From contig NZ_BJTG01000002.1 of assembly GCF_013340205.1 (NCBI RefSeq), forward strand, positions 124,001 to 188,000: a stretch of DNA of 64,000 bases. The letters run 5' to 3'. A model generated the notes under the pieces. That model saw only the letters and a list, made by a program, of their open reading frames with translations, was not told the DNA's origin and did not search any database. The first letter of the stretch is position 1; the number at the start of each line of letters is the position of its first letter. Both the position numbers and the translations under genes were made by a program. This document shows, piece by piece, positions 1 to 12,411 of the stretch. The stretch comes from Anaeromyxobacter diazotrophicus (GTDB lineage: Bacteria; Myxococcota; Myxococcia; Myxococcales; Anaeromyxobacteraceae).

Positions 1-325
1 CGATGGGCGGCGTCACGAGCGCCCGGATGTCGGCGCCCGTCATGGTGGCGGCGGACGCCTTGTAGGGCTTGCCGTCGATCTGGATCGGGATCTGATGGTC
101 GCCGGGGTTGATCGTCGTCGGGGCGGAGAAGAGGTGCGTCCCGGGCTTCAGCTCGATGACGTCGGAGTCGCCGACCTTCCGGTCGTCCGCGGGGCCGGGG
201 ACGACGAGGAACAGGTCGCGGTCGGGGCCGATGGGCGGCGAGGCGAGGGCGCGGATCTGCGCGCCCGTCATCGTCGGGGCCGGGGCGTCGTACTTCTTCT
301 GGTCGATGAGGATGGGGATGTGCAT
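1..325 (-). CDS. Multiubiquitin-domain protein (partial, continues past left edge)
   Basis: The 108 visible residues hold one complete ubiquitin-like unit (about residues 2-75) and the start of a second (from about 78). Both units share the pattern IPI-x-ID-x-K-x-Y followed by TMTGA-x-IRAL and a PPI turn. The first continues with GPDRDLFLV, an acidic DD pair and a closing SAPTTINPG. This is the bacterial multiubiquitin family, whose members are thought to be ubiquitin-like modifiers encoded beside E1-like, E2-like and JAB or metal-binding genes. The ATG start is preceded by an AAAGGA ribosome site about eight bases upstream. The gene diverges from a sigma-factor-like gene across 198 bp. Later repeats, the C-terminal tail and any conjugation enzymes lie outside the window. 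Family assignment is strong; the conjugation role here is inferred. Confidence 0.9.
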   Translation of the reverse strand, partial: MHIPILIDQKKYDAPAPTMTGAQIRALASPPIGPDRDLFLVVPGPADDRKVGDSDVIELKPGTHLFSAPTTINPGDHQIPIQIDGKPYKASAATMTGADIRALVTPPI

Positions 326-523
326 GGCGTACGGTCCTTTCGTTCGGGCGGTCCCGGGGCGCGGCACCATGCCGGCGCTCCCTGGCCACCTAAGAAGGGA
401 TGCTCCCCAGCCGGGATTTTTCGCGGTGCGTCCAGGCGGATCTGCTAACGTCCCGTCGCCACAGGTGTTCTAGGGGCGCCGCGAAAACCTGCCGGACGGG
501 AGCATCAACCGGGTGGAGGTGCG

Positions 524-1129
524 GTGGACGGGAAGACCCGAGCGTATTTCGTGAAGGTCTTGCCGACCGTCTATCCGACGGTCCTGGCTCGCGCCGTCAT
601 GCTCGTGCGCCGGCGCCGGTGGTTCGTGAAGCGGTACGGTAGCGAGAAGGAGGCCGCGGAGGAGTTGGCGCAGGACGCGGTCCTCCGGACGATGACGGGG
701 AAGCGGACCTGGAACCCGGCCAAGGTTCCGGACCTCGACTATTTCCTGAGCGGCGTGATGCGGAGCATTCTCAGCGCGGCGAGCAAGAGCCCGACGTTCC
801 TCACCGAGCCGCTGAGCACGGTCCCGGTGGCGCACGACGGGGACGAGGCCTCTTCGGCCGACGAGGTCCTCGGGACGCTCGACGATCGCGCCCGCGGCAT
901 GAAGGATCCGGAGACGGCGCTGCTGGACGCGGAGGCCTGCTCGATGCTGGTGGACCGCGCGCTCGACGCCGCTGGAGACGACGCCTCCGCGGCCAAGGTC
1001 GTCGACGCGGTGGTCGATGGCTGCGAGAAGGTGGCAGAGATCGCGGATGCCACCGGCCTCACCGCCGAGAAGATCTATTCCGCTACCCGCAAGATCCGGG
1101 ATCGGTACCGGAGGGGAGCGAAGCGATGA
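524..1129 (+). CDS. RNA polymerase sigma-factor-like protein
   Basis: A 201-residue protein with the layout of a small sigma-70 factor. An N-terminal helical block (about residues 30-95) resembles region 2, with EEAAEELAQDAVLRTM and WNPAKVPDLDYFLSGVMRSI, the form seen in small sigma-like proteins of accessory loci. After a variable acidic linker comes a C-terminal helix-turn-helix like region 4 (about 155-198, VAEIADATGLTAEKIYSATR). It would direct transcription of a small target set, perhaps the divergent multiubiquitin gene. The GTG start follows GGAGGT by only three bases; no better start is visible. Its stop overlaps the next ATG (ATGA), so the two are coupled. No typical anti-sigma gene adjoins. 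A non-sigma DNA-binding role is possible. Confidence 0.75.
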   Translation: MDGKTRAYFVKVLPTVYPTVLARAVMLVRRRRWFVKRYGSEKEAAEELAQDAVLRTMTGKRTWNPAKVPDLDYFLSGVMRSILSAASKSPTFLTEPLSTVPVAHDGDEASSADEVLGTLDDRARGMKDPETALLDAEACSMLVDRALDAAGDDASAAKVVDAVVDGCEKVAEIADATGLTAEKIYSATRKIRDRYRRGAKR

Positions 1130-1545
1130 AGAAGCCCCCGCCTAAGAACACTGACGCCGAAGTCGCCTCGCGACTCGAAGGGCTCTTCGAGCAGGTCCCA
1201 CTTGAACCACGTGAGATCGAGGAAACGCTCCGAGAGGTGGGGATAGATGCGAAGTCCGCCACGGAGCGGATGATGGCGCGCGTGTTGGAAGTTCAGGAGC
1301 ACGAACGTCGTGAACGCTTGGCTCAGGCCGACTCGGAACGAAAGGCAGATGCCGTTAGGCACCAGTCGAAGCGCGGTGGCGCGTCGCTGCGGAGCCGGGC
1401 CGAGATGCTCGCAAGGTTCTTCGAGATCCGAACCCAGCACCCCGCGGCAGCCGCGATGTTTCGTGACTTTCAGTCCGCTTCGGACGAGGACCTACGGTCC
1501 CTTCTCGACGACCTCGAAGAACTGATCTCCGGTGGCGACTCGTAA
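1126..1545 (+). CDS. Hypothetical helical protein linked to the sigma-like gene
   Basis: A 139-residue charged, mostly helical protein with no recognised domain, signal peptide or membrane segment. The middle (about residues 40-90) is rich in Arg, Glu and Gln and could form a coiled coil; the last 30 residues are acidic (SDEDLRSLLDDLEELI). It overlaps the sigma-like gene by four bases and the metallopeptidase start lies inside its last codons, so the three should be made together. A short, charged protein placed directly after a sigma factor could be an adaptor or antagonist of it, and the following ImmA-type protease could remove it. That role is inferred from gene order alone. Confidence 0.7.
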   Translation: MKKPPPKNTDAEVASRLEGLFEQVPLEPREIEETLREVGIDAKSATERMMARVLEVQEHERRERLAQADSERKADAVRHQSKRGGASLRSRAEMLARFFEIRTQHPAAAAMFRDFQSASDEDLRSLLDDLEELISGGDS

Positions 1546-2332
1546 GCCACAAGATGCCGACATGGCGAGGGGTGAGCGCGTCGCCAGGGAGGTGTACGCG
1601 GAGATCGGACTCGCTCACCCGACCGAGATTCCGATCGAGACGCTCGCGTACATGCGCGGCGCTCGCGTTCGCGATGTCCGGATGCCAGGGGCGCAGGGGC
1701 GGCTCGCCCGGCTCGGGTCGAAGGCAATTATCGCGGTCAGCGACGCGGTCACCTACGCGCCGCGGCGCCGGTTCGTCATCGCGCACGAGGTCGGTCACCT
1801 GGAGCTGCACGAGGCGGAGAACCAGATCGCGCTCTGCGACGAGGCCAAGATCGACGAGGTCTACGACCAGGGCACCGAGCGGGAGTCGAACGCCTTCGCG
1901 ACAGAGCTGCTCATGCCCCGCGCCCTGTGGGCAAAGCGCGTGGACGTGGCGAAGCCCGACCTGAACGTGGTGGCGAAGCTCGCGGACGAGTTCCAGGTCA
2001 GCTTCACGGCAGCGGCGATCCGGTTCGCGAAGCTGTGCCCGGAACGATGCGCGGTCGTGTTCTCTCAGGACGGGGTGATCAGGTGGTCTGCGGCGGGACG
2101 TGAGTTCGGCCACTGGATTCAGTGGGGGGCGAAGCTGGACCGCTACACCCTGGCCTACGACTACTTCGCGAAGGGCGGGGTGGGTGACCGACCGGAAACC
2201 GTGGACGCCAGCGCATGGCTCGCGTCCGAGCGGCTCGGCAAGGACGACGACCTCGTCGAGCACTCCCGCCCGATCCCAAGCCTGAGGGCGGTGCTCTCGT
2301 TGCTGTGGATTCCCTCCGACCGAGAATTCTGA
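1532..2332 (+). CDS. ImmA/IrrE-family zinc metallopeptidase
   Basis: A 266-residue protein with the zinc-protease motif HEVGH at residues 85-89 and a downstream ESNAFATELLMP segment, which supplies the third metal ligand and matches the family's N-x-FA-x-x-LLMP signature. ImmA of ICEBs1 cleaves a phage-type repressor, and IrrE of Deinococcus cleaves DdrO after DNA damage, so members usually switch on stress or mobile-element genes by cutting a regulator. Here the likely target is a product of its own operon or the sigma-like protein. About 100 residues follow the protease part with no recognised domain. The GTG start overlaps the previous gene by 14 bases; an in-frame ATG at 1562 is an alternative that would remove the overlap. 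Confidence 0.88.
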   Translation: MATRKPQDADMARGERVAREVYAEIGLAHPTEIPIETLAYMRGARVRDVRMPGAQGRLARLGSKAIIAVSDAVTYAPRRRFVIAHEVGHLELHEAENQIALCDEAKIDEVYDQGTERESNAFATELLMPRALWAKRVDVAKPDLNVVAKLADEFQVSFTAAAIRFAKLCPERCAVVFSQDGVIRWSAAGREFGHWIQWGAKLDRYTLAYDYFAKGGVGDRPETVDASAWLASERLGKDDDLVEHSRPIPSLRAVLSLLWIPSDREF

Positions 2333-2640: not shown

Positions 2641-3402
2641 GTGGCGACGTTCCTGCGGCAGGTCAGTGGAATGCTGAAGGCCGGCGGCAACGTCGGCCGC
2701 GCCGAGAAGCTCGAACGGCAGGGTCGGCTCGCCGACGCGCGGGTGGCGCTCCTGCAGGCAATCGAGGCGACGGGGCTGGCCACTTCGAGCCTCCTCGAAC
2801 CCGCCACGGCATCTAGCCGCTTCGTGGCGACGACGGCGCTCGCGCGCATTGCGGCCTTGCTCCACGACCGTGTCGAGGCCACGCAGTACGCAAGGGCTGG
2901 ACTTGCGCTGTGGGCGGAGGCGCGCCTCGCCGTCCCGGCCATGCGAGACGTGAACGGGTTCGCGGAATGGGAGTCGTGGGCGCGCGCCTACCTCGAACGT
3001 GAGGCCACCCAGGACGAGGTTCCCGTCGGGATGAAGATCGAGTTCATCCCCGACGGAGCGCCGGAAACTCCGCTCATCCTGATCAAGGGGCGAGACGGCG
3101 AGGCCGTTCGCGCGCTTCGCGACGCGATCGCTCGCGCGGATCGCGGCCCGTTCGCTGTCCACGCGGTCCGCGGTGTCGAGCCGGTGGGTGGCTGCCACCT
3201 CGCGGCCGCGCTGGGCGATCGAGATCGCGGAGTTCGGCAGGTCGGGAAGCTCGCGTTCGAGTGGGTCCTGGATGCCGAAGGATGGGCGCAGGTAAATGGG
3301 TTGCTGAAGCCGTTCGAGGATCCCACGCCAGGTCGCGGGTTCCAGTACCTCAGCAGAGAAGGGGAAGTCCGGGTGCTGATCTCGCGCGACGGACGGTGGT
3401 AG
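2641..3402 (+). CDS. Hypothetical protein with helical-repeat-like N-terminus
   Basis: A 253-residue protein that I do not recognise. Residues 10-105 are alanine-rich helices with a tetratricopeptide-like rhythm (RAEKLERQGRLADARVALLQ, then ATQYARAGLALWAEARL). The second half is mixed alpha/beta with a segment of the form EVPVGMKIEFIPDG and a hydrophobic strand LILIKG. There is no signal peptide or membrane helix, so it is probably cytoplasmic. The GTG start follows an in-frame TGA at 2632 and a weak GAGG at 2634-2637, so the true start cannot lie further upstream. It lies 27 bases before the next gene on the same strand and inside the presumed island. Codon usage fits a real gene. Confidence 0.62.
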   Translation: MATFLRQVSGMLKAGGNVGRAEKLERQGRLADARVALLQAIEATGLATSSLLEPATASSRFVATTALARIAALLHDRVEATQYARAGLALWAEARLAVPAMRDVNGFAEWESWARAYLEREATQDEVPVGMKIEFIPDGAPETPLILIKGRDGEAVRALRDAIARADRGPFAVHAVRGVEPVGGCHLAAALGDRDRGVRQVGKLAFEWVLDAEGWAQVNGLLKPFEDPTPGRGFQYLSREGEVRVLISRDGRW

Positions 3403-3429: not shown

Positions 3430-4164
3430 GTGTGGATCGTCTCGAAGCTGGTCGTCACACCGCGCACCTACTCGTTCGCGTCGAGTGGGCAGGGAACGAA
3501 TGAGGATCTGGTCCTCCATGCTGATGACCAGGAACTCGTGAACATGCTGCGGCTGGTCGACTGGAGTGAGGATCCAGTGCAGGTCGTCGTGTGTGACGCC
3601 TGCGGCACCGTGGGGTGTGCTACCGGAAACTACGTCGCGGTTCGGCGGCTGGCGGACTACGTCGTGTTTGCACCACCGACGAGACCGTACGAAGAGACGG
3701 CGGACGAGACCGAGAAGGTCCAGTACCTAGAGCCATGGTTCATCAGGAAGCGCGGAGTCCCGCTCGTGCCAGTAGCTGAGTGGGATCGACTTCGGAACGA
3801 CGGCTTCCCACTCCCTTCATCGGAATCGATGTCGCCGCTTCGGTGGAGCGAAGCGGTGATCGCTGCGCAGATCGAGGCGCCGCATCGGATGCTCGGTGAT
3901 CCGGGACAGAAGCCGCAGCAGCGGCTGTCGGAAGTCGTTCAGGCGACGGACCCCTGGCTCGAAGCTGAAGTGCTTGACCGTCTCGGAGATGTTGCGGCCT
4001 GGCGAGCAAAAGGGACGATCGCGACGCTCAGGAAGATCATTTCCGGGCAGAAGGGGTCGCTGATCCTCAAAGATCCCTTTCAAGAGGTGGTCCTTTTCGG
4101 GAAGGACGGCGACGAATTTGGCCTCTACTTTGAGCCCGGCATGCTTCTCCTGCCGCGCCACTAG
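3430..4164 (+). CDS. Hypothetical protein with CxxC-type cysteine cluster
   Basis: A 244-residue protein without a recognised family. Around residues 55-70 it has C-D-A-C-G-T-V-G-C, a CxxCx4C cluster that could bind zinc or iron, preceded by beta strands (QVVVCDACG). The last third (about 180-240) is helical and then strand-rich, ending in an aromatic and hydrophobic tail. No transmembrane segments or signal peptide are present. The GTG start has a good GGAGG site five bases upstream. It is the last gene before the apparent island border and probably shares a transcript with the preceding gene. Its base composition is slightly less GC-rich than the chromosome on the right, consistent with island cargo. 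Confidence 0.62.
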   Translation: MWIVSKLVVTPRTYSFASSGQGTNEDLVLHADDQELVNMLRLVDWSEDPVQVVVCDACGTVGCATGNYVAVRRLADYVVFAPPTRPYEETADETEKVQYLEPWFIRKRGVPLVPVAEWDRLRNDGFPLPSSESMSPLRWSEAVIAAQIEAPHRMLGDPGQKPQQRLSEVVQATDPWLEAEVLDRLGDVAAWRAKGTIATLRKIISGQKGSLILKDPFQEVVLFGKDGDEFGLYFEPGMLLLPRH

Positions 4165-5405: not shown

Positions 5406-5909
5406 GTGGCTCCTGCGCCCTTTATCGTCCGTCCCGCGGGCCCCTGTGATGCGGCTGCCATCACCGCCGTACACATCGACTCGATCACCGTCCTGGGTGC
5501 GCGAGGGTACGCGCCCGACCAGGTGGCGCAGTGGCGTCTACCCTGTGCGCCTCAGCGGTACGTCGATGCGATGGCACGCGGCGAGCACTTCTTCCTCGCG
5601 GTGACGTCAGACACGGCTCCGGGTCCACTCGGCTTTTCCGCGTATCGTGTCGAGCATGGTCTTCACCGAATCGCGACCTATGTCGCAGCACGCGGAGCGC
5701 GTCGGGGGGTGGGGACCGCGCTCTACCTTGCCGCCGAGGAGCTGGCGCGCACACGCGGGGCCCGCGAAATCCACGTCGACTCGTCCCTTGTAGCCGTCGA
5801 CTTCTACCTCGCCCTCGGCTTCGACGAGGTTGCGCGCGGAGCGCACCCGCTGCGCATCGGGGGCGATCTGCCGTGCGTATTCATGCGAAAGGTGATTGTA
5901 AAGTCATAA
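5406..5909 (+). CDS. GNAT-family N-acetyltransferase
   Basis: A 167-residue protein spanning a GCN5-related acetyltransferase fold. It opens with a strand-helix (IVRPAGPCDAAAITAVHIDS), and residues 95-120 hold the acetyl-CoA motif A (V-A-x-x-x-RR-G-V-G-T-A-L, matching Q/RxxGxG/A). The C-terminal strand-helix-strand is typical (VDFYLALGFDEV). It should acetylate a small molecule or protein amine in the cytoplasm; the substrate cannot be told from sequence. The GTG start follows the upstream membrane-protein gene by six bases, so they are probably co-transcribed. The stop is 40 bases from the end of the convergent MFS gene. Confidence 0.85.
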   Translation: MAPAPFIVRPAGPCDAAAITAVHIDSITVLGARGYAPDQVAQWRLPCAPQRYVDAMARGEHFFLAVTSDTAPGPLGFSAYRVEHGLHRIATYVAARGARRGVGTALYLAAEELARTRGAREIHVDSSLVAVDFYLALGFDEVARGAHPLRIGGDLPCVFMRKVIVKS

Positions 5910-5949
5910 TCACCGTCGGGCAGGACGGCTGGCGGCTTGGCGACGGAGC

Positions 5950-7404
5950 TCACCTTCCCTTGGGGACCGTGAGCATGACGGAGACGATGGCGACGACGAC
6001 CATCAGGATGTTGAATCCCAGCGCGATGATCGCGGCCCCGCGCACCGCCAGGTTGTCCTGACGGCCCTGGAACGTGATCACGCCCTCGAGCCAGTGCACG
6101 CTCCGCGGGTTCGCGCCGAGCGCCGTGAAGATCGCCGCGGAGATCGCCACGCCGAACGCCGCGCCCAGGGACGACGCCATCTTGTAGATGCCGGATCCGG
6201 AGCCAGACTGGGCGGCCGGCAAGTTGGACAGCGCCGCGTCGGTCGACGGCGTCGCGTAGAAGGCGAGCCCTACGCCGAACAACGTGTAGCCGATCACGGC
6301 CATCACCTCGTAGTCGGCCAGCATCACGTTGGCCGGGGTGAGCAGCAGGATCGAGGCGCCCGTGATCAGGCACCCCCACAGCATCGGCCGGCGGGCGCCG
6401 AAGCGCCGTAGCAGCTTCTCGCCCACGCGGATGAAGGCGATGATGGCGATGGCATAGCCGAGCGTCAGGACGCCGGCCTGCTGGGCCGACATGTTGCCGC
6501 CGATCTGCACGAGCTGCAGGGACACGATCAAAGTCCCGGCCACCGCGTTGAGAAGGAAGTTGGAGAGGGTTGCCCCGGTGTAGGTCGAGTTGCGGAACAG
6601 GCCGAAGTCGATGAAGGCGTTCGGAGCCTTGGCTTCGATGCGGAAGAACAGCCATCCGAAGACGACCGCCGTGGCCATCAGCGCGAGCGAGGCCGGGCTG
6701 CTCCAGCCGAGCCTGTTGCCCTGGGTGACCACCACCTGCACGGCCACCATCGCGACCATGAAGGCGAGCACTCCGGACCAATCGAACCTGTACTCGCCCC
6801 GGGTCTCGGCCCGGCTCTCCGGCGTCCCGCGCAGCAAGACCAGGCCAACAGCGGCGGCCGCCACCGAGGCGAAGAAGATGTAGCGCCAGCCCAGGTGCTG
6901 CGTCACGAGCCCGCCGAACAGCGAGCACACTCCGGAGCCACCCCACGAGCCGATGGACCACAGGCTGATCGCGCGCTGGCGCGCGGCGCCGTCCCAGTAC
7001 GCCTTCACCAGCGCGAGGCTCGCGGGCATGATGCAGGCGCCCGAGAGCCCCTGGAGCGCTCGCCCCGCCAGGAGAGATGGCACCGCGAGCCTGCCCGAGG
7101 GCGCCAGGCCGACCAGCAGCGAACCGACCATGCTCAGGGCGAAGCCGAGCTTCACGATCTTCAAGCGGCCGACGCGGTCGGCCAGCCCACCCATCACCAC
7201 GATGAAGATGCCCGAGAACAACGCCGTGATCGCCACCGCGATGTTCATCACGCTGGCGTCCGTGCCGAGCTCGCGGCTCATGTCGGGCGCGATGTTGAGC
7301 GTCGTCTGAGCGAACAGCCAGAAGGTCAGCACGCCCAGGATGATGCCGAGCAGGAGCCGGTCGTTGCCCTGGAACGAAACGCTGCTGGTGCCGGGCGCGC
7401 TCAT
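5950..7404 (-). CDS. MFS drug-efflux transporter (DHA2/14-helix type)
   Basis: A 484-residue integral membrane protein with about fourteen hydrophobic segments. It has the major-facilitator signature between helices 2 and 3 (GGLADRVGRLKIVKLGF) and a motif-C-like region in helix 5 (GSWGGSGVCSLFGGLV), which mark the antiporter DHA2 group (QacA/EmrB/SdrM-like). It should export toxic organic compounds using the proton gradient. It is the last leftward gene of a series beginning with an NmrA-like gene. A terminator at 7515-7547 separates it from the SnoaL-like gene, so it probably has its own promoter in 7405-7514. Regulation by the TetR protein at 13712 is possible but unproven. Confidence 0.88.
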   Translation of the reverse strand: MSAPGTSSVSFQGNDRLLLGIILGVLTFWLFAQTTLNIAPDMSRELGTDASVMNIAVAITALFSGIFIVVMGGLADRVGRLKIVKLGFALSMVGSLLVGLAPSGRLAVPSLLAGRALQGLSGACIMPASLALVKAYWDGAARQRAISLWSIGSWGGSGVCSLFGGLVTQHLGWRYIFFASVAAAAVGLVLLRGTPESRAETRGEYRFDWSGVLAFMVAMVAVQVVVTQGNRLGWSSPASLALMATAVVFGWLFFRIEAKAPNAFIDFGLFRNSTYTGATLSNFLLNAVAGTLIVSLQLVQIGGNMSAQQAGVLTLGYAIAIIAFIRVGEKLLRRFGARRPMLWGCLITGASILLLTPANVMLADYEVMAVIGYTLFGVGLAFYATPSTDAALSNLPAAQSGSGSGIYKMASSLGAAFGVAISAAIFTALGANPRSVHWLEGVITFQGRQDNLAVRGAAIIALGFNILMVVVAIVSVMLTVPKGR

Positions 7405-7514
7405 CCGGATGGATCCTCCCGTGCTCGGAGATTGTGGCTACGTCATCTCGCCGGGATGAAGAAGCGCCGGACGAGCGATCGGCGTCATGAAGAGGACGCG
7501 TGGTCGTGCCAACG

Positions 7515-7547
7515 GAAGAAAAGGGGGCCGCCCGTCGGCGGGCCCCG
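7515..7547 (-). terminator. Rho-independent terminator after the SnoaL-like gene
   Basis: Read on the reverse strand, a GC-rich hairpin (GGGGCCCGCC, short loop, GGGCGGCCCC, with one bulge) is followed by CTTTTCTT. It lies about 95 bases beyond the stop of the SnoaL-like gene and upstream of the MFS start, so it should end transcription between them. Confidence 0.65.
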
Positions 7548-7641
7548 CTTGAGACCTGAGCCCCGCAGGACCTTTGGCGCACGCAACCGGACGGAACGAT
7601 CTGCGCACGCCCGCACGGGGGCGTGCCCCTCTGCCATCCGG

Positions 7642-8061
7642 CTAAGCCAAGCGGTCGGGGATCGGCTTCAGGCGATACACGGACCAGAAGAACAGGTCCG
7701 CCTTGTGCTGATCGGCGGCGAAGTTCGTGACTTCCTTGATCCGCCCGCCCTCGAACCGGAACACGAGGCACCACGTCATGTCCACGCCGCCAGCGACCTC
7801 GCTCCAGCCGCGGTGGTGGTCGATGACGTAGTCTCCGTCCGCGACCACCACGATGGGCTTCGCCTGGAAGCTCGCTCTCGCGAGCTGGTCGAAGAACGCG
7901 AGCACCTCGTCCACGCCGCGCTTCTCGCCAGCGAGTGGATGATGGCCGGGGATGCGCCACACGATGTCCGGTGCGAGCGCCTCGCGGACTCTCGCGACGT
8001 CCTTCGCGGCGTACGCGCCAAAGAAGTCCTCGATCACCTGCAGGTTGGGGTGCTTGGTCAC
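7642..8061 (-). CDS. SnoaL-like / NTF2-fold protein
   Basis: A 139-residue NTF2-fold protein. It opens with the characteristic N-terminal helices (LQVIEDFFGAYAAKDVARVR), followed by LAPDIVWRIPGHHPLAG, a helix (VDEVLAFFDQLA), and a curved sheet ending in MTWCLVFRFEGGRIKEVTNF. Such proteins bind small hydrophobic ligands or act as cyclases, isomerases or hydrolases; the reaction here is unknown. The GTG start was chosen for its GAAGGA site about seven bases upstream. A longer frame exists, but its first 80 residues are low-complexity and have no ribosome site. The gene lies downstream of copy 1 of the duplicated membrane protein on the same strand. Confidence 0.82.
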   Translation of the reverse strand: MTKHPNLQVIEDFFGAYAAKDVARVREALAPDIVWRIPGHHPLAGEKRGVDEVLAFFDQLARASFQAKPIVVVADGDYVIDHHRGWSEVAGGVDMTWCLVFRFEGGRIKEVTNFAADQHKADLFFWSVYRLKPIPDRLA

Positions 8062-8266
8062 GAATCCGTCCTTCTCGAGGGCCTGGCATCGGATCCGGAC
8101 GACCGGTGGTCCGGATGCGGGTGGTGGCCCGGAGTGACTGCCGGCGATGGAGGTAACGTCCTGCTCGATGACCTGCACTGCCCCACCGCGCGACTCACTC
8201 GAGGTGCTCAGCTCGCCTCCCGAGATGAACCGACAGCCGGCACGCCGCTTGGCGCGAGCAGCGAGG

Positions 8267-8782
8267 CTATCCGGGGGATGGCTGGCCCGAGAAGGCGGAT
8301 ACACGCTGGGGCTGGAGAAGAATCCGGAAAGCGAGGCCGTGCATGATCAGCAGCAGCGGCACGATGAGCGTCGGAATGAAGTAGGCCGCTCCCAGCTGCC
8401 CTGGCAGGAGCCCGGAGTGATTGGCCTGGTAGAAGGCGTTCACGAGGTCGGCGGTGCCCCAGATGCCGAAGATCCACGCGAGGACGACGCCCGCTGCGCG
8501 GGGCAGCGACCAGAGTGACAGCAACGCGAGCGTCGCCGCGATGAGGTCCCCGTACGCGGCGGAGTCGGCGAAGGCGGGCGGCACGCCGGGCGAGACCACG
8601 CCGGGGACGAGGAAGGCCAACCCGACGAAGCGGAAGGCGTGGAGCATCAGCAGAGGCCGCAACGCCTCTGCTCTCGGCCGGAGACGAAGGGCCGGCCAGA
8701 CGTATCGGGCGGTGACGATCCCCCACGCGAGGAGGCTGAACGCGATGCTGGCGAAGAACCAGAGGCGTGATGCCATGGGCAT
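8267..8782 (-). CDS. Conserved membrane protein, copy 1 of a duplication
   Basis: A 171-residue protein with about four or five transmembrane helices (residues 5-27, 42-64, 75-100, 103-118 and 130-157) and an aromatic segment WIFGIWGTADLVNAFYQ. I cannot name a function. It is nearly identical to the product of 11899-12411: the first 157 residues differ at about seven positions, and the C-termini then diverge completely (here ending SAFSGQPSPG) exactly where the DNA repeat ends. One copy has therefore acquired a new tail. A start-proximal ATCTCC-rich leader is shared by both copies. The SnoaL-like gene follows on the same strand. Confidence 0.72.
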   Translation of the reverse strand: MPMASRLWFFASIAFSLLAWGIVTARYVWPALRLRPRAEALRPLLMLHAFRFVGLAFLVPGVVSPGVPPAFADSAAYGDLIAATLALLSLWSLPRAAGVVLAWIFGIWGTADLVNAFYQANHSGLLPGQLGAAYFIPTLIVPLLLIMHGLAFRILLQPQRVSAFSGQPSPG

Positions 8783-8831
8783 CTCCTGGAGCTGGTTGCG
8801 GCGGGTGACTGCGTCGAAGGACCAGGCGCGC
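8308..8831. repeat. Direct repeat, copy 1 (524 bp)
   Basis: This segment matches 11937-12460 in the same orientation at a constant offset of 3629 bases, with scattered substitutions and no indels. It covers almost all of a membrane-protein gene and about 50 bases upstream of its start. The two copies bracket the TIR gene and transposase remnants. Confidence 0.9.
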
Positions 8832-8913
8832 TGCGTCGGCGAGGGCCTCGGCCCGTCCCAGCGCGGCGCTGGCCTCGGCCGCGCCCGGCGCTCACCTGCG
8901 AGCTGGCGTGGCC

Positions 8914-9180
8914 TTGACCTGCCCCCCGAAAACTACCCCAGCGAAGGTGTCCGTCCTCTCGTGATGGAGGAGGGGACGCGATGCCGAAGGGCAGGACGCA
9001 TACCGCGGAACAGATCATCCGAGCGCTGCGTGAGGTCGACGCCGGCGTGAAGGTCGGCGACGTTTGCCGGCAGCTCGGAGTCGTCGAGAAGTACTACGGG
9101 ATGGAGCCGAGCGAAGCGCGTCGTCTTCGAGAACTCGAGGACGAGTTCAGGCCGGAAGGTGCCACGCTGGGATACTACGG
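8914..9180 (+). mobile_element. IS3-family insertion sequence remnant (left end and broken orfA)
   Basis: A terminal inverted-repeat-like end (TTGACCTGCCCCCCGAAAAC, 8914-8933) is followed by an orfA-like reading frame starting ATG at 8981. It opens MPKGRTHTAEQIIRALREVD, continues VGDVCRQLGV, and then runs into GMEPSEARRLRELEDE. IS3-family OrfA proteins have this helix-turn-helix and leucine-zipper layout. The second helix (usually a TYYRWR-type motif) is shortened here, and after RELEDE the frame loses similarity. No orfB with a DDE catalytic core follows. The element is dead, and only its left 250 bases or so remain. Confidence 0.6.
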
Positions 9181-9302
9181 AATCGTAGGTCACACCGCCG
9201 GGCGCGTCTTCGCTGGAGCACGCGCACCGCGGTGGTTCGAAGAACTGATCGCGCGAGCGATGTGCCGAAACCGCCATCGAGCGGCGCCTCCAACAGCGGC
9301 CC

Positions 9303-11270
9303 TCAGGCTACCTCAGGGCGAGCGCAAGGCTGCCACGCAACAACGGTCGGTCTCGCGCCGGCCGTCGAAAAATCGTACCTGAACCCTCGAAGCGCGCCGC
9401 TGTCATCCTGCGCGAGCACGGTACGAACGTAGGGCTTCTCTGCAATAGCTGCGGCGCCACCTAGCAGTGTCGCTGGCGGCGAGCCTGGAGCGGCGGCTGG
9501 GGTCTCCTCCAGGATCCAGAATGGAAACTCAGGCTCCGGGCACCGAGCTACAGCGCTGAACCCGTTGGTGGTGCATGAGTATTCGTGCGGTCCTGTAGCA
9601 GTTACGGCAATCTTTCGCCGCCCGTCCATGAAAAATGCATCGAGAGGCCGGGGGCGTCTGAGGCTACTCAGGCCATCAGCCGCCGTCGAGGCCAACATGC
9701 CAGCTACTTCGCCTCCGGTCTCGGCAAGTCGGTCGCTCTCCTGGGTCTCCCGGTTGAGCGCTTGCTCGCAATCGGCCCTTACTTTGTAGGGTAAGTCGGG
9801 ATGCGCAACGTTGAACCTACCTGCATGAGTCTCCAAGATCTCAAGCGCGCCAGCGTGGTTGGGACCCTGCGTAAGCAGCAGAGCCAAATTGACCTTAGCG
9901 ACGTTGATACCCGCATCAGCCGCCCGCTTGTATGCTAGGTAGGCCTGTGAGCGGAGATTATTCACGTGCAACGCGCGGCCAAGCTGTAGTGTGGATCCGT
10001 CTTTCGTGTTCGCGTGCTCACGTGCATAGTGAACAGCTACCGCCAGCCACTCGCGTTCGATCGCAAGGTTGACGGCGCGCTCCAGCGCAGCGCTGCTGCC
10101 GTTCATGCCTTCGGCGTATGCGAAAAATAGCATCGTGACGATCGGATCCACGGTTGTGGTTGTGCGTGCGTACAAAAGCGCGCAATTAGATCTGAGTTCG
10201 CGCGATGAGGCGCACAGTCCCTCGTGGATGACCGTAAGAGCGGCGGCAACATCTCCGACGCGATATAGTGCAGAAGCTAAGGCTTCATACGAAGCCCGAG
10301 ACCACCGCGAGTCGCCGGCGGCGATGCAAGTCCTATAGTGTCTGATCGCGTGTGTCGGAATTCGTTCGCAGAGCCCCATGAAGTACTGGCAAACCGCCGA
10401 TCCGCGCGTCTCCGGATCGAGGTGTTCTAGCGCCTGCAGCGAGTCGGCGGTCGTTCTCTTCGTTCCGATTACGATCTTCGCCACTCGCGCTTCCTGTTTG
10501 AGGCTTGGCGGGGCATCTGAAGATTCAAACGACGACAGCCTCTTGTCGGCGGAGTCTTTGTCGCCAGCGGAAAGGTCGCTGACGATCTTCCGCAAAGCTG
10601 CGGCATGAGAATCGACGTCATCGCCTCCGGCATCCGGGTCTTGCTCAGCGGTCTGCTTCGCCGCCGCGAGCGCGCGCTCGAACGCCGCGTAGCGCTGCGC
10701 GAACCATGGCTTAAGGATGCCGCCGGTCGCCTCGGCGACGCTCTTCAGTAGTCGTTCAACCGCCGGCTTGTCGCTTGCGTTTGTTGCTTGGTAATCGGCG
10801 ATCGTGCTGCTCAGATCTTCCGTCCCCGCCTCTACTAGCAAGGGCGCGTAAAGTTGATTTCTGCCCCACGCTGCTCCTGCTTCAAAAAAGATCCATTCGC
10901 GAGCTTTTGATGCCGGCGTGATGAGGCCTACAAACGCTTTGGCGCGCTGAACCGCGCGTTGGATTTGTGGCTTGTAACCGATCGCGGAGGGCCGAAGGCT
11001 CTCTCCTGATATGAACACTTCTGGAGCGGGCTCGAGGGAAGCCTCGACCAAACGCTTGACGGCGGCAGCGATAGCGTAGTCCACCCCCGCCCGGTAAGAT
11101 ATAAACACGGTCGCCGACTCCGTAGCGGCCATTGGCAACGGTTCTTCCCTGGGGTCCCTTGGCGCTTCTTCTGCCGGCTCGCCGCCGCGTTGATCGTGCT
11201 GCCCAGCGGCTACATCGTGACGCTCGGCGGCTTCGCCCTCCGAAGTGCGCCCGGATTCGTTCTCGTCCAT
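9303..11270 (-). CDS. TIR-domain protein with C-terminal helical repeats (putative defence NADase)
   Basis: A 655-residue protein. A TIR domain spans about residues 48-180: it begins ATVFISYRAG, contains VFISGESL, and carries a W-x-x-x-E signature (EWIFFEAGAAWG) with the likely NAD-hydrolysing Glu at 130. From about 215 to 530 come alpha-helical Sel1/TPR-like repeats (YRVGDVAAALTVIHEGL; AYLAYKRAADAGINVAKVNL), followed by a C-terminal beta-rich tail. Bacterial TIR proteins of this layout often act in phage defence, depleting NAD or making a signal once a sensor is triggered; here the repeats would be the sensor or scaffold. The gene is clearly AT-richer than its surroundings and lies between transposase fragments, indicating transfer. 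An ATG at 11132 is a possible shorter start, removing a 46-residue acidic extension. Confidence 0.82.
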   Translation of the reverse strand: MDENESGRTSEGEAAERHDVAAGQHDQRGGEPAEEAPRDPREEPLPMAATESATVFISYRAGVDYAIAAAVKRLVEASLEPAPEVFISGESLRPSAIGYKPQIQRAVQRAKAFVGLITPASKAREWIFFEAGAAWGRNQLYAPLLVEAGTEDLSSTIADYQATNASDKPAVERLLKSVAEATGGILKPWFAQRYAAFERALAAAKQTAEQDPDAGGDDVDSHAAALRKIVSDLSAGDKDSADKRLSSFESSDAPPSLKQEARVAKIVIGTKRTTADSLQALEHLDPETRGSAVCQYFMGLCERIPTHAIRHYRTCIAAGDSRWSRASYEALASALYRVGDVAAALTVIHEGLCASSRELRSNCALLYARTTTTVDPIVTMLFFAYAEGMNGSSAALERAVNLAIEREWLAVAVHYAREHANTKDGSTLQLGRALHVNNLRSQAYLAYKRAADAGINVAKVNLALLLTQGPNHAGALEILETHAGRFNVAHPDLPYKVRADCEQALNRETQESDRLAETGGEVAGMLASTAADGLSSLRRPRPLDAFFMDGRRKIAVTATGPHEYSCTTNGFSAVARCPEPEFPFWILEETPAAAPGSPPATLLGGAAAIAEKPYVRTVLAQDDSGALRGFRYDFSTAGARPTVVAWQPCARPEVA

Positions 11271-11898: not shown

Positions 11899-12411
11899 TC
11901 AGGTGATGGCTTGCCCGACACGGACGGTTGCCCGCCGGGGCTGGAGAAGAATCCGGAAAGCGAGGCCGTGCGTGATCAGCAGCAGCGGCACGATGAGCGT
12001 CGGAATGAAGTAGGCCGCTCCCAGCTGCCCTGGCAGGAGCCCGGAGTGATTGGCCTGGTAGAAGGCGTTCACGAGATCGGCGCTGCCCCAGACGCCGAAG
12101 ATCCACGCGAGGACGACGCCCGCTGCGCGGGGCAGCGACCAGAGTGACAGCAACGCGAGCGTCGCCGCGATGAGGTCCCCGTACGCAGCGGGATACGCAA
12201 AGGCGGGCGGCACCCCGGGCGAGACCACGCCGGGGACGAGGAAGGCCAACCCGACGAAGCGGAAGGCGTGGAGCATCAGCAGAGGCCGCAACGCCTCGGC
12301 TCTCGGCCGGAGACGAAGGGCCGGCCAGACGTATCGGGCGGTGACGATCCCCCACGCGACGAGGCTGAACGCGATGCTGGCGAAGAACCAGAGGCGCGAC
12401 TCCATGGGCAT
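11899..12411 (-). CDS. Conserved membrane protein, copy 2 of a duplication
   Basis: A 170-residue multi-pass membrane protein, near-identical to the product of 8267-8782 except for its C-terminus (ending in VGQAIT) and a few substitutions (for example Tyr-Pro for Asp-Ser near residue 73). It begins 50 bases after the NmrA-like stop on the same strand, so this copy sits in the likely ancestral operon order: NmrA-like protein, then membrane protein. Function unknown. Its last dozen codons lie outside the repeat, so one or both copies have altered ends. Confidence 0.72.
   Translation of the reverse strand: MPMESRLWFFASIAFSLVAWGIVTARYVWPALRLRPRAEALRPLLMLHAFRFVGLAFLVPGVVSPGVPPAFAYPAAYGDLIAATLALLSLWSLPRAAGVVLAWIFGVWGSADLVNAFYQANHSGLLPGQLGAAYFIPTLIVPLLLITHGLAFRILLQPRRATVRVGQAIT

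Follow-up and report, generated by a model that had tools for sequence, protein, structure and literature searches.

An open question is how bacteria silence toxic immune systems and then turn them on, and the known controllers are repressors that are removed on DNA damage. In one of these systems, the peptidase CapP cleaves the repressor CapH in an ssDNA-dependent manner (PMC10904395). CapK together with CapS, and also CapW, are portable controllers found beside CBASS, Bil, Bub and other immune operons (PMC13373217). None of the described CapW, CapH-CapP and CapK-CapS controllers includes a sigma factor. A sigma factor is part of the Calp system of type III CRISPR, composed of the protease CalpL, the anti-sigma factor CalpT and the sigma factor CalpS, in which the protease cuts CalpT and CalpS is thereby freed (PMC12751052). 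With respect to ubiquitin-like genes, Iyer et al. (2006) described poly-Ubl operons of class 6e, which comprise Multi_ubiq, Prok-E2_E and JAB-E1 and whose E2 fold was termed inactive; the word "sigma" does not occur in that paper, and no sigma-type controller was found there (PMC1779556).

In this study, we analysed a stretch of 64,000 nucleotides from Anaeromyxobacter diazotrophicus (the window), at the left end of which a ubiquitin-like operon lies head to head with a cassette of three genes, here called SIG, HEL and IMM (Table 1). An earlier note made from the sequence alone had reported these genes with their ATGA and 14-base overlaps, the HEVGH motif and the ubiquitin-like repeats, all of which agreed with our coordinates and Pfam results. 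It had also expected conjugation genes to the left, and these were indeed found when the window was extended by 18,000 nucleotides of left flank (L004), namely a Ub-E2 fusion and a JAB-E1 fusion. The extension completed the multiubiquitin gene, which encodes a protein of 294 aa with two Multi_ubiq repeats (above the cut-off) and a Prok-E2_E domain (E 2e-34); the ATG that is its probable start, in preference to position 370, is accompanied by a ribosome-binding site. Tandem ubiquitin-like repeats, an E2-fold domain and a JAB-E1 fusion, all above the Pfam cut-offs, assign the operon to class 6e, with the same parts as the published poly-Ubl operons (PMC1779556) and the difference that the repeats and the E2 fold form a single protein here. 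The Ub-E2 fusion (L004 16121-18370 region) contains no cysteine, and its relatives have no conserved cysteine position in their Prok-E2_E domains, so that thioester transfer by this fold is unlikely. The C-terminal RGGR was considered as a ubiquitin-like tail and dropped, as relatives do not conserve it.

Table 1. Features of the window and its left flank (L004), and immune operons adjoining the cassette (positions refer to the window unless marked L004)
Feature	Position or loci	Strand	Remarks
JAB-ThiF (deconjugase and E1) fusion, 453 aa	L004:16121-17482, off-window	-	Pfam Prok-JAB and ThiF above cut-offs
Multiubiquitin gene, 5' part	1-370	-	Probable start ATG at 325; gene continues off-window as far as L004:17486
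Promoter-like element facing the Ub-E2/JAB-E1 operon	399-426	-	CCGCGAAAA-N10-GGGAGCATC
Identical promoter-like element facing SIG-HEL-IMM	479-506	+	CCGCGAAAA-N10-GGGAGCATC; second box separated from the SIG start codon by 17 nt
SIG, ECF-type sigma factor (by fold), 201 aa	524-1129	+	GTG start; weak Pfam region 2, fold match
HEL, helical small protein, 139 aa	1126-1545	+	ATGA overlap with SIG; proposed anti-sigma factor or adaptor
IMM, CapP-type M78 Zn-metallopeptidase, 266 aa	1532-2332	+	HEVGH motif; 14-base overlap with HEL
CBASS partner	L041, L045, L047, L050, L051, L049, L196, L207		L196 with TRIP13
Multiubiquitin/E2/JAB-E1 partner	Window, L046, L048, L210, L191, L197, L204, L203		On the downstream side in L203
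MBL and E2-E1-JAB with patatin partner	L044, L192, L198
Bil or Bil-like partner	L043, L205, L211		L205: BilB E 5e-51, BilD E 2e-134; L211: same strand
Pycsar cyclase and PycTM with E2 partner	L027
TIR with Nmad2 and MazG partner	L026

The surroundings of both operons were also inspected. To the left of the conjugation operon (L004 6565-15519), the translations revealed a type I restriction-modification system together with transposase genes resembling those of IS3 and IS30, the setting of a defence island. On the other side, two genes 3' of the cassette (2641-3402 and 3430-4164; 253 and 244 aa) had no Pfam matches; they probably lie outside the cassette and were not observed in the other cassette loci. 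Further downstream, two near-identical membrane-protein ORFs (8267-8782 and 11899-12411; MPM.SRLWFFASIAFSL.AWGIVTARYVWPALRLRPRAEA) about 3.6 kb apart represent a local duplication.

The first gene of the cassette had been called sigma-like, and its predicted structure narrowed this to the ECF type. Based on an AF2 model and an alignment of 15 loci, SIG is predicted to have region-2-type helices at residues ~3-94, a low-confidence or disordered linker at 98-126 and a region-4-type helix-turn-helix at 129-200, which is the layout of an ECF (group 4) sigma factor with regions 2 and 4 only and a flexible linker between them. A fold search against PDB resulted almost exclusively in sigma factors among the top matches, with Mycobacterium SigH complexes first and a probability of 0.98-1.0 for the top five, this match being carried by the probability and not by the E value (0.02) or the whole-chain TM (~0.33). 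The low TM is probably caused by movement of the two domains relative to each other. At the sequence level, the Pfam hit of the window protein to Sigma70_r2 was weak and under the curated cut-off (E 1.4e-4), region 2 was seen in seven of 15 family members (best E 1e-5), and region 4 was undetected by Pfam; a profile of the family reached SigH in PDB (E 0.0014). Thus, SIG is classified by its modelled fold as an ECF-type sigma factor, with weak Pfam support for region 2 only. Neither SIG nor HEL matched any PADLOC family, capH included, and no HTH repressor gene of the CapH kind was recognised next to IMM.

The product of the second gene, HEL, is predicted to be helical. It revealed no Pfam match, no PDB sequence match below E 0.02 and no fold match, and no known anti-sigma domain or fold was detectable in it by sequence or fold; a hit to a phage immunity repressor (8bny, E 0.024) was dismissed as being at chance level. 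Anti-sigma genes typically follow the sigma gene with an overlap, a position which HEL shares and which is no proof of function. In L204, the N-terminal segment of HEL is fused to IMM, and in L193 it is fused to an SNF2 helicase without IMM. These fusions fit an adaptor that holds SIG and serves different sensors. In the L193 locus (G823, 5751-10136), the fusion of the HEL-like segment to the SNF2 helicase and a HATPase gene follow SIG, and IMM was not seen; the locus possibly represents the same sigma/adaptor pair with a different sensor.

For the third gene, previously described as an ImmA/IrrE protease, the assignment could be refined to the CapP type. Peptidase_M78 was clearly detected by Pfam (E 4e-17), capP of PADLOC matched over the full length (residues 12-260, E 5.5e-55), and the solved structure best matched by the family profile was CapP (7t5t, E 7.5e-32), followed by IrrE. 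The zinc site, formed by the HExxH motif and a downstream glutamate (H85, E86, H89 and E118), was invariant in 15 IMM sequences. Judged from its sequence, IMM thus belongs to the CapP family and has an intact predicted active site. A phage origin was considered and rejected, as no full-length IMM relatives were found in the phage collection and scans of viral contigs returned only partial ImmA matches or nothing. On a plasmid of Pontibacter actiniarum (L220, 7464-9184), umuD and a Y-family polymerase gene are located directly 3' of IMM, which is consistent with a DNA-damage context.

Searches for further copies revealed SIG, HEL and IMM in the same order, mostly overlapping or abutting, in about 30 loci distributed among Myxococcota, Chloroflexota, Bacteroidota and Alphaproteobacteria, a recurrence that argues against a chance order; IMM was translationally coupled to HEL in most of them. 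A search with SIG in its own phylum yielded three further loci with all three genes in this order, and scanning genomes with the IMM alignment brought in loci of Myxococcota, Chloroflexota and Saprospiraceae. Matches to the SIG profile were obtained in four genomes of Chloroflexota (n=350), 18 of Bacteroidota (n=396) and seven of its own phylum (n=195), and on inspection about 12 in Bacteroidota and five in the own phylum were complete cassettes. SIG-HEL pairs without a nearby IMM were found in L193 and L206. Plasmid copies are carried by Pontibacter actiniarum, Spirosoma linguale and the alphaproteobacterium Aestuarium zhoushanense, the HEL of the last being undetected by the profile. The plasmid of P. 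actiniarum DSM 19842 is a cultured and annotated example, in which SIG and HEL are annotated as hypothetical proteins.

The neighbours of the cassettes were identified with Pfam and PADLOC, apart from five loci (L048, L050, L051, L207 and L210) assigned from translations and phmmer rather than an own Pfam scan, and the cassettes themselves had been found by SIG or IMM queries that are blind to neighbours. A recognisable immune operon adjoined about 24 of 28 cassettes, usually head to head with SIG (Table 1), and three plasmid cassettes were likewise paired with multiubiquitin operons. No recognised immune partner was found by Pfam and PADLOC in L042, L194, L202 and L215, and in L040 the cassette is located at a contig end. 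In a leave-group-out phmmer test (n=27), which gives no credit to one-of-a-kind partners, an immune relative was present on the SIG side in 19 of 27 loci and on the IMM side in two of 27; based on this difference within the same loci, a chance neighbourhood was rejected. As a control, 40 further ImmA loci from the same genome scan were examined, of which 17 had an immune neighbour upstream and none had one downstream. Association with immune operons is thus a trait of the entire CapP family and known already, and SIG and HEL are the new part. Among close relatives, with an IMM 54-61% identical to that of the window, the partner changed from multiubiquitin in the window to TIR/Nmad2/MazG (L026), Pycsar (L027), a Bil-like operon (L043) and CBASS (L041). 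These five different partners indicate that the cassette is exchanged as a unit.

Some neighbours could not be placed in a recognised system. The TIR, Nmad2 and MazG genes of L026 (5668-7936), a possible unrecognised defence operon, diverge from the cassette and carry the promoter-like pair described below. This pair is also present in L194 (7349-9030), where the neighbour is a 416-aa protein, and in L202 (6975-8651), with FRG-domain and DUF2188-like genes. In L215 (2154-6944), a 1596-aa AAA/STAND-like protein is encoded downstream of the cassette. The neighbours in the last three loci are candidates for new immune genes.

A search for sigma promoter motifs between 326 and 523, as had been proposed, revealed a promoter-like pair with one element per operon. 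The two elements have 18 exactly matched positions and equal spacing, a result reached in 0 of 200 dinucleotide shuffles, and the pattern GCGAAA-N13..16-AGCATC occurred only at these two sites in the 4.83 Mb genome (expectation for the window 0.02). In the family, the architecture is a G-rich/A-rich box TGGMAAAA followed after 13-15 bases by a box around AGCAT or AGCTA, facing outward in the cassettes of other phyla as well; the second box takes a variant form (CGGTATTAA) in the Chloroflexota loci, and no clear pair was seen in L042, L192 and L207. Since a search for paired exact runs missed the pairs of Saprospiraceae and Chloroflexota due to its run-length and overlap rules, a PWM was used instead. 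Its sites had been picked by eye in some of the tested loci, so that the leave-group-out version is the one to trust. In this test, 14 of the 26 regions, from 12 independent groups, had no random control segment of the same locus that matched in both directions, and the pairs of all these regions were oriented outward. Sites of the element were 29-fold denser in the intergenic regions of the cassettes than in the flanks, and the element was absent from two multiubiquitin loci of the CapH/CapP type. The spacing resembles that of an ECF promoter. Because the elements are directional, non-palindromic and outward-facing at both operons, a promoter of SIG fits better than an operator, and we infer that they are SIG promoters.

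Taken together, we consider it fairly probable that SIG-HEL-IMM is a portable sigma/anti-sigma/protease switch which turns on the adjoining immune operon and itself. SIG would recognise the two-box promoter, of which two outward-facing copies lie between its own operon and that of the immune system. HEL, co-translated with SIG, would keep it inactive as an anti-sigma factor: a self-driving SIG loop needs a lock, for which HEL, coupled right after SIG, is the sole candidate. A damage signal would then activate IMM, ssDNA being the activating signal of CapP and PprI, and IMM would cut HEL and set SIG free; IMM is the proposed key because CapP cuts its repressor CapH with ssDNA. Freed SIG would finally transcribe the immune operon, here Ub-E2 and JAB-E1, together with its own operon, resulting in positive feedback. 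Inhibition by HEL, its cleavage by IMM and a trigger by DNA damage or ssDNA, or by phage as the earlier note also considered, are thus putative steps, and no cleavage site for IMM was found.

An arrangement in which the protease acts on SIG itself or on SIG-HEL appears unlikely to us, though it deserves the most attention among the other readings. HEL would then be a co-activator or stabiliser and IMM would end or limit the response, or SIG would be a repressor removed as CapH is by CapP. CapP has been described with the DNA-binding repressor CapH as its partner, which makes a DNA-binding target the conservative guess, and the multiubiquitin loci L031 (capH E 4e-17 and capP E 1e-50 in PADLOC), which served as a control, and L033 carry CapH/CapP-like pairs at the same divergent place. 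However, SIG has the predicted fold of an ECF sigma factor, the outward-facing elements fit a promoter better, and a mere substitute for CapH would not need two extra genes. It is still less probable that SIG and HEL form a sigma/anti-sigma pair from which IMM is separate, for example as a toxin activated by damage or as a protease acting on a phage protein, with HEL releasing SIG upon another signal. The SIG-HEL pairs of L193 and L206 would agree with this, whereas the translational coupling of IMM to HEL in most loci and the fusion of IMM to a HEL-like segment in L204 speak against it.

The earlier note had tied the switch to multiubiquitin, and this stood only in part. While the conjugation genes do lie to the left and the cassette is found beside multiubiquitin operons in several loci, it is also widespread without them, beside CBASS, Bil, Pycsar, MBL-E1/E2 and TIR operons. 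Nearly all other neighbours being immune operons, the idea of a switch was broadened rather than refuted. A regulator dedicated to ubiquitin-like conjugation genes only, as the eight loci so paired and the three plasmids might suggest, is therefore highly improbable, as it is contradicted by these other operons at the same place. With much the same, moderate confidence as for the sigma/anti-sigma/protease switch, we propose an undescribed sigma-based family of immune controllers, in which an ECF sigma factor, a new type of anti-sigma factor and a CapP-type protease would act on CBASS, Bil, multiubiquitin, Pycsar and related systems of at least four phyla through a conserved bidirectional and self-amplifying promoter. 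If true, this control would invert the logic of the known repressors by activating with positive feedback, which would account for immune operons that are completely silent and yet rise sharply. The element would offer a direct route to operons under SIG-type control, including unrecognised ones as in L026, L194 and L202.

In the literature, we found no sigma-CapP system; the search scope lay outside the primary Bub, Bil and CapH/CapP papers, where an earlier mention is possible. The involvement of a sigma factor and HEL in the control of immune operons thus looks new, though this is not certain. With CapH-CapP, which combines an HTH repressor and an ssDNA-activated M78 peptidase in CBASS and Bub operons, the cassette has in common the CapP-type peptidase, the place beside an immune operon and the broad range of partners. 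In contrast, it lacks the HTH repressor and has an ECF-type sigma factor and a helical protein instead, and a head-to-head promoter-like pair takes the place of what is presumably an operator. CapK-CapS and CapW are likewise portable and located beside immune operons, but they are based on a kinase/STAS pair or WYL repressors, without a sigma factor or CapP peptidase. The closest mechanistic analogue is CalpL-CalpT-CalpS, in which a protease, a small protein and a sigma factor are also encoded together in an immune setting. No homology to Calp was seen in our PDB searches, and no CRISPR genes were recognised in the flanks examined. While CalpL is a cA4-activated SAVED-Lon protease of CRISPR loci, the protease of the cassette is a Peptidase_M78 of the CapP type, and the cassette would serve many different systems.
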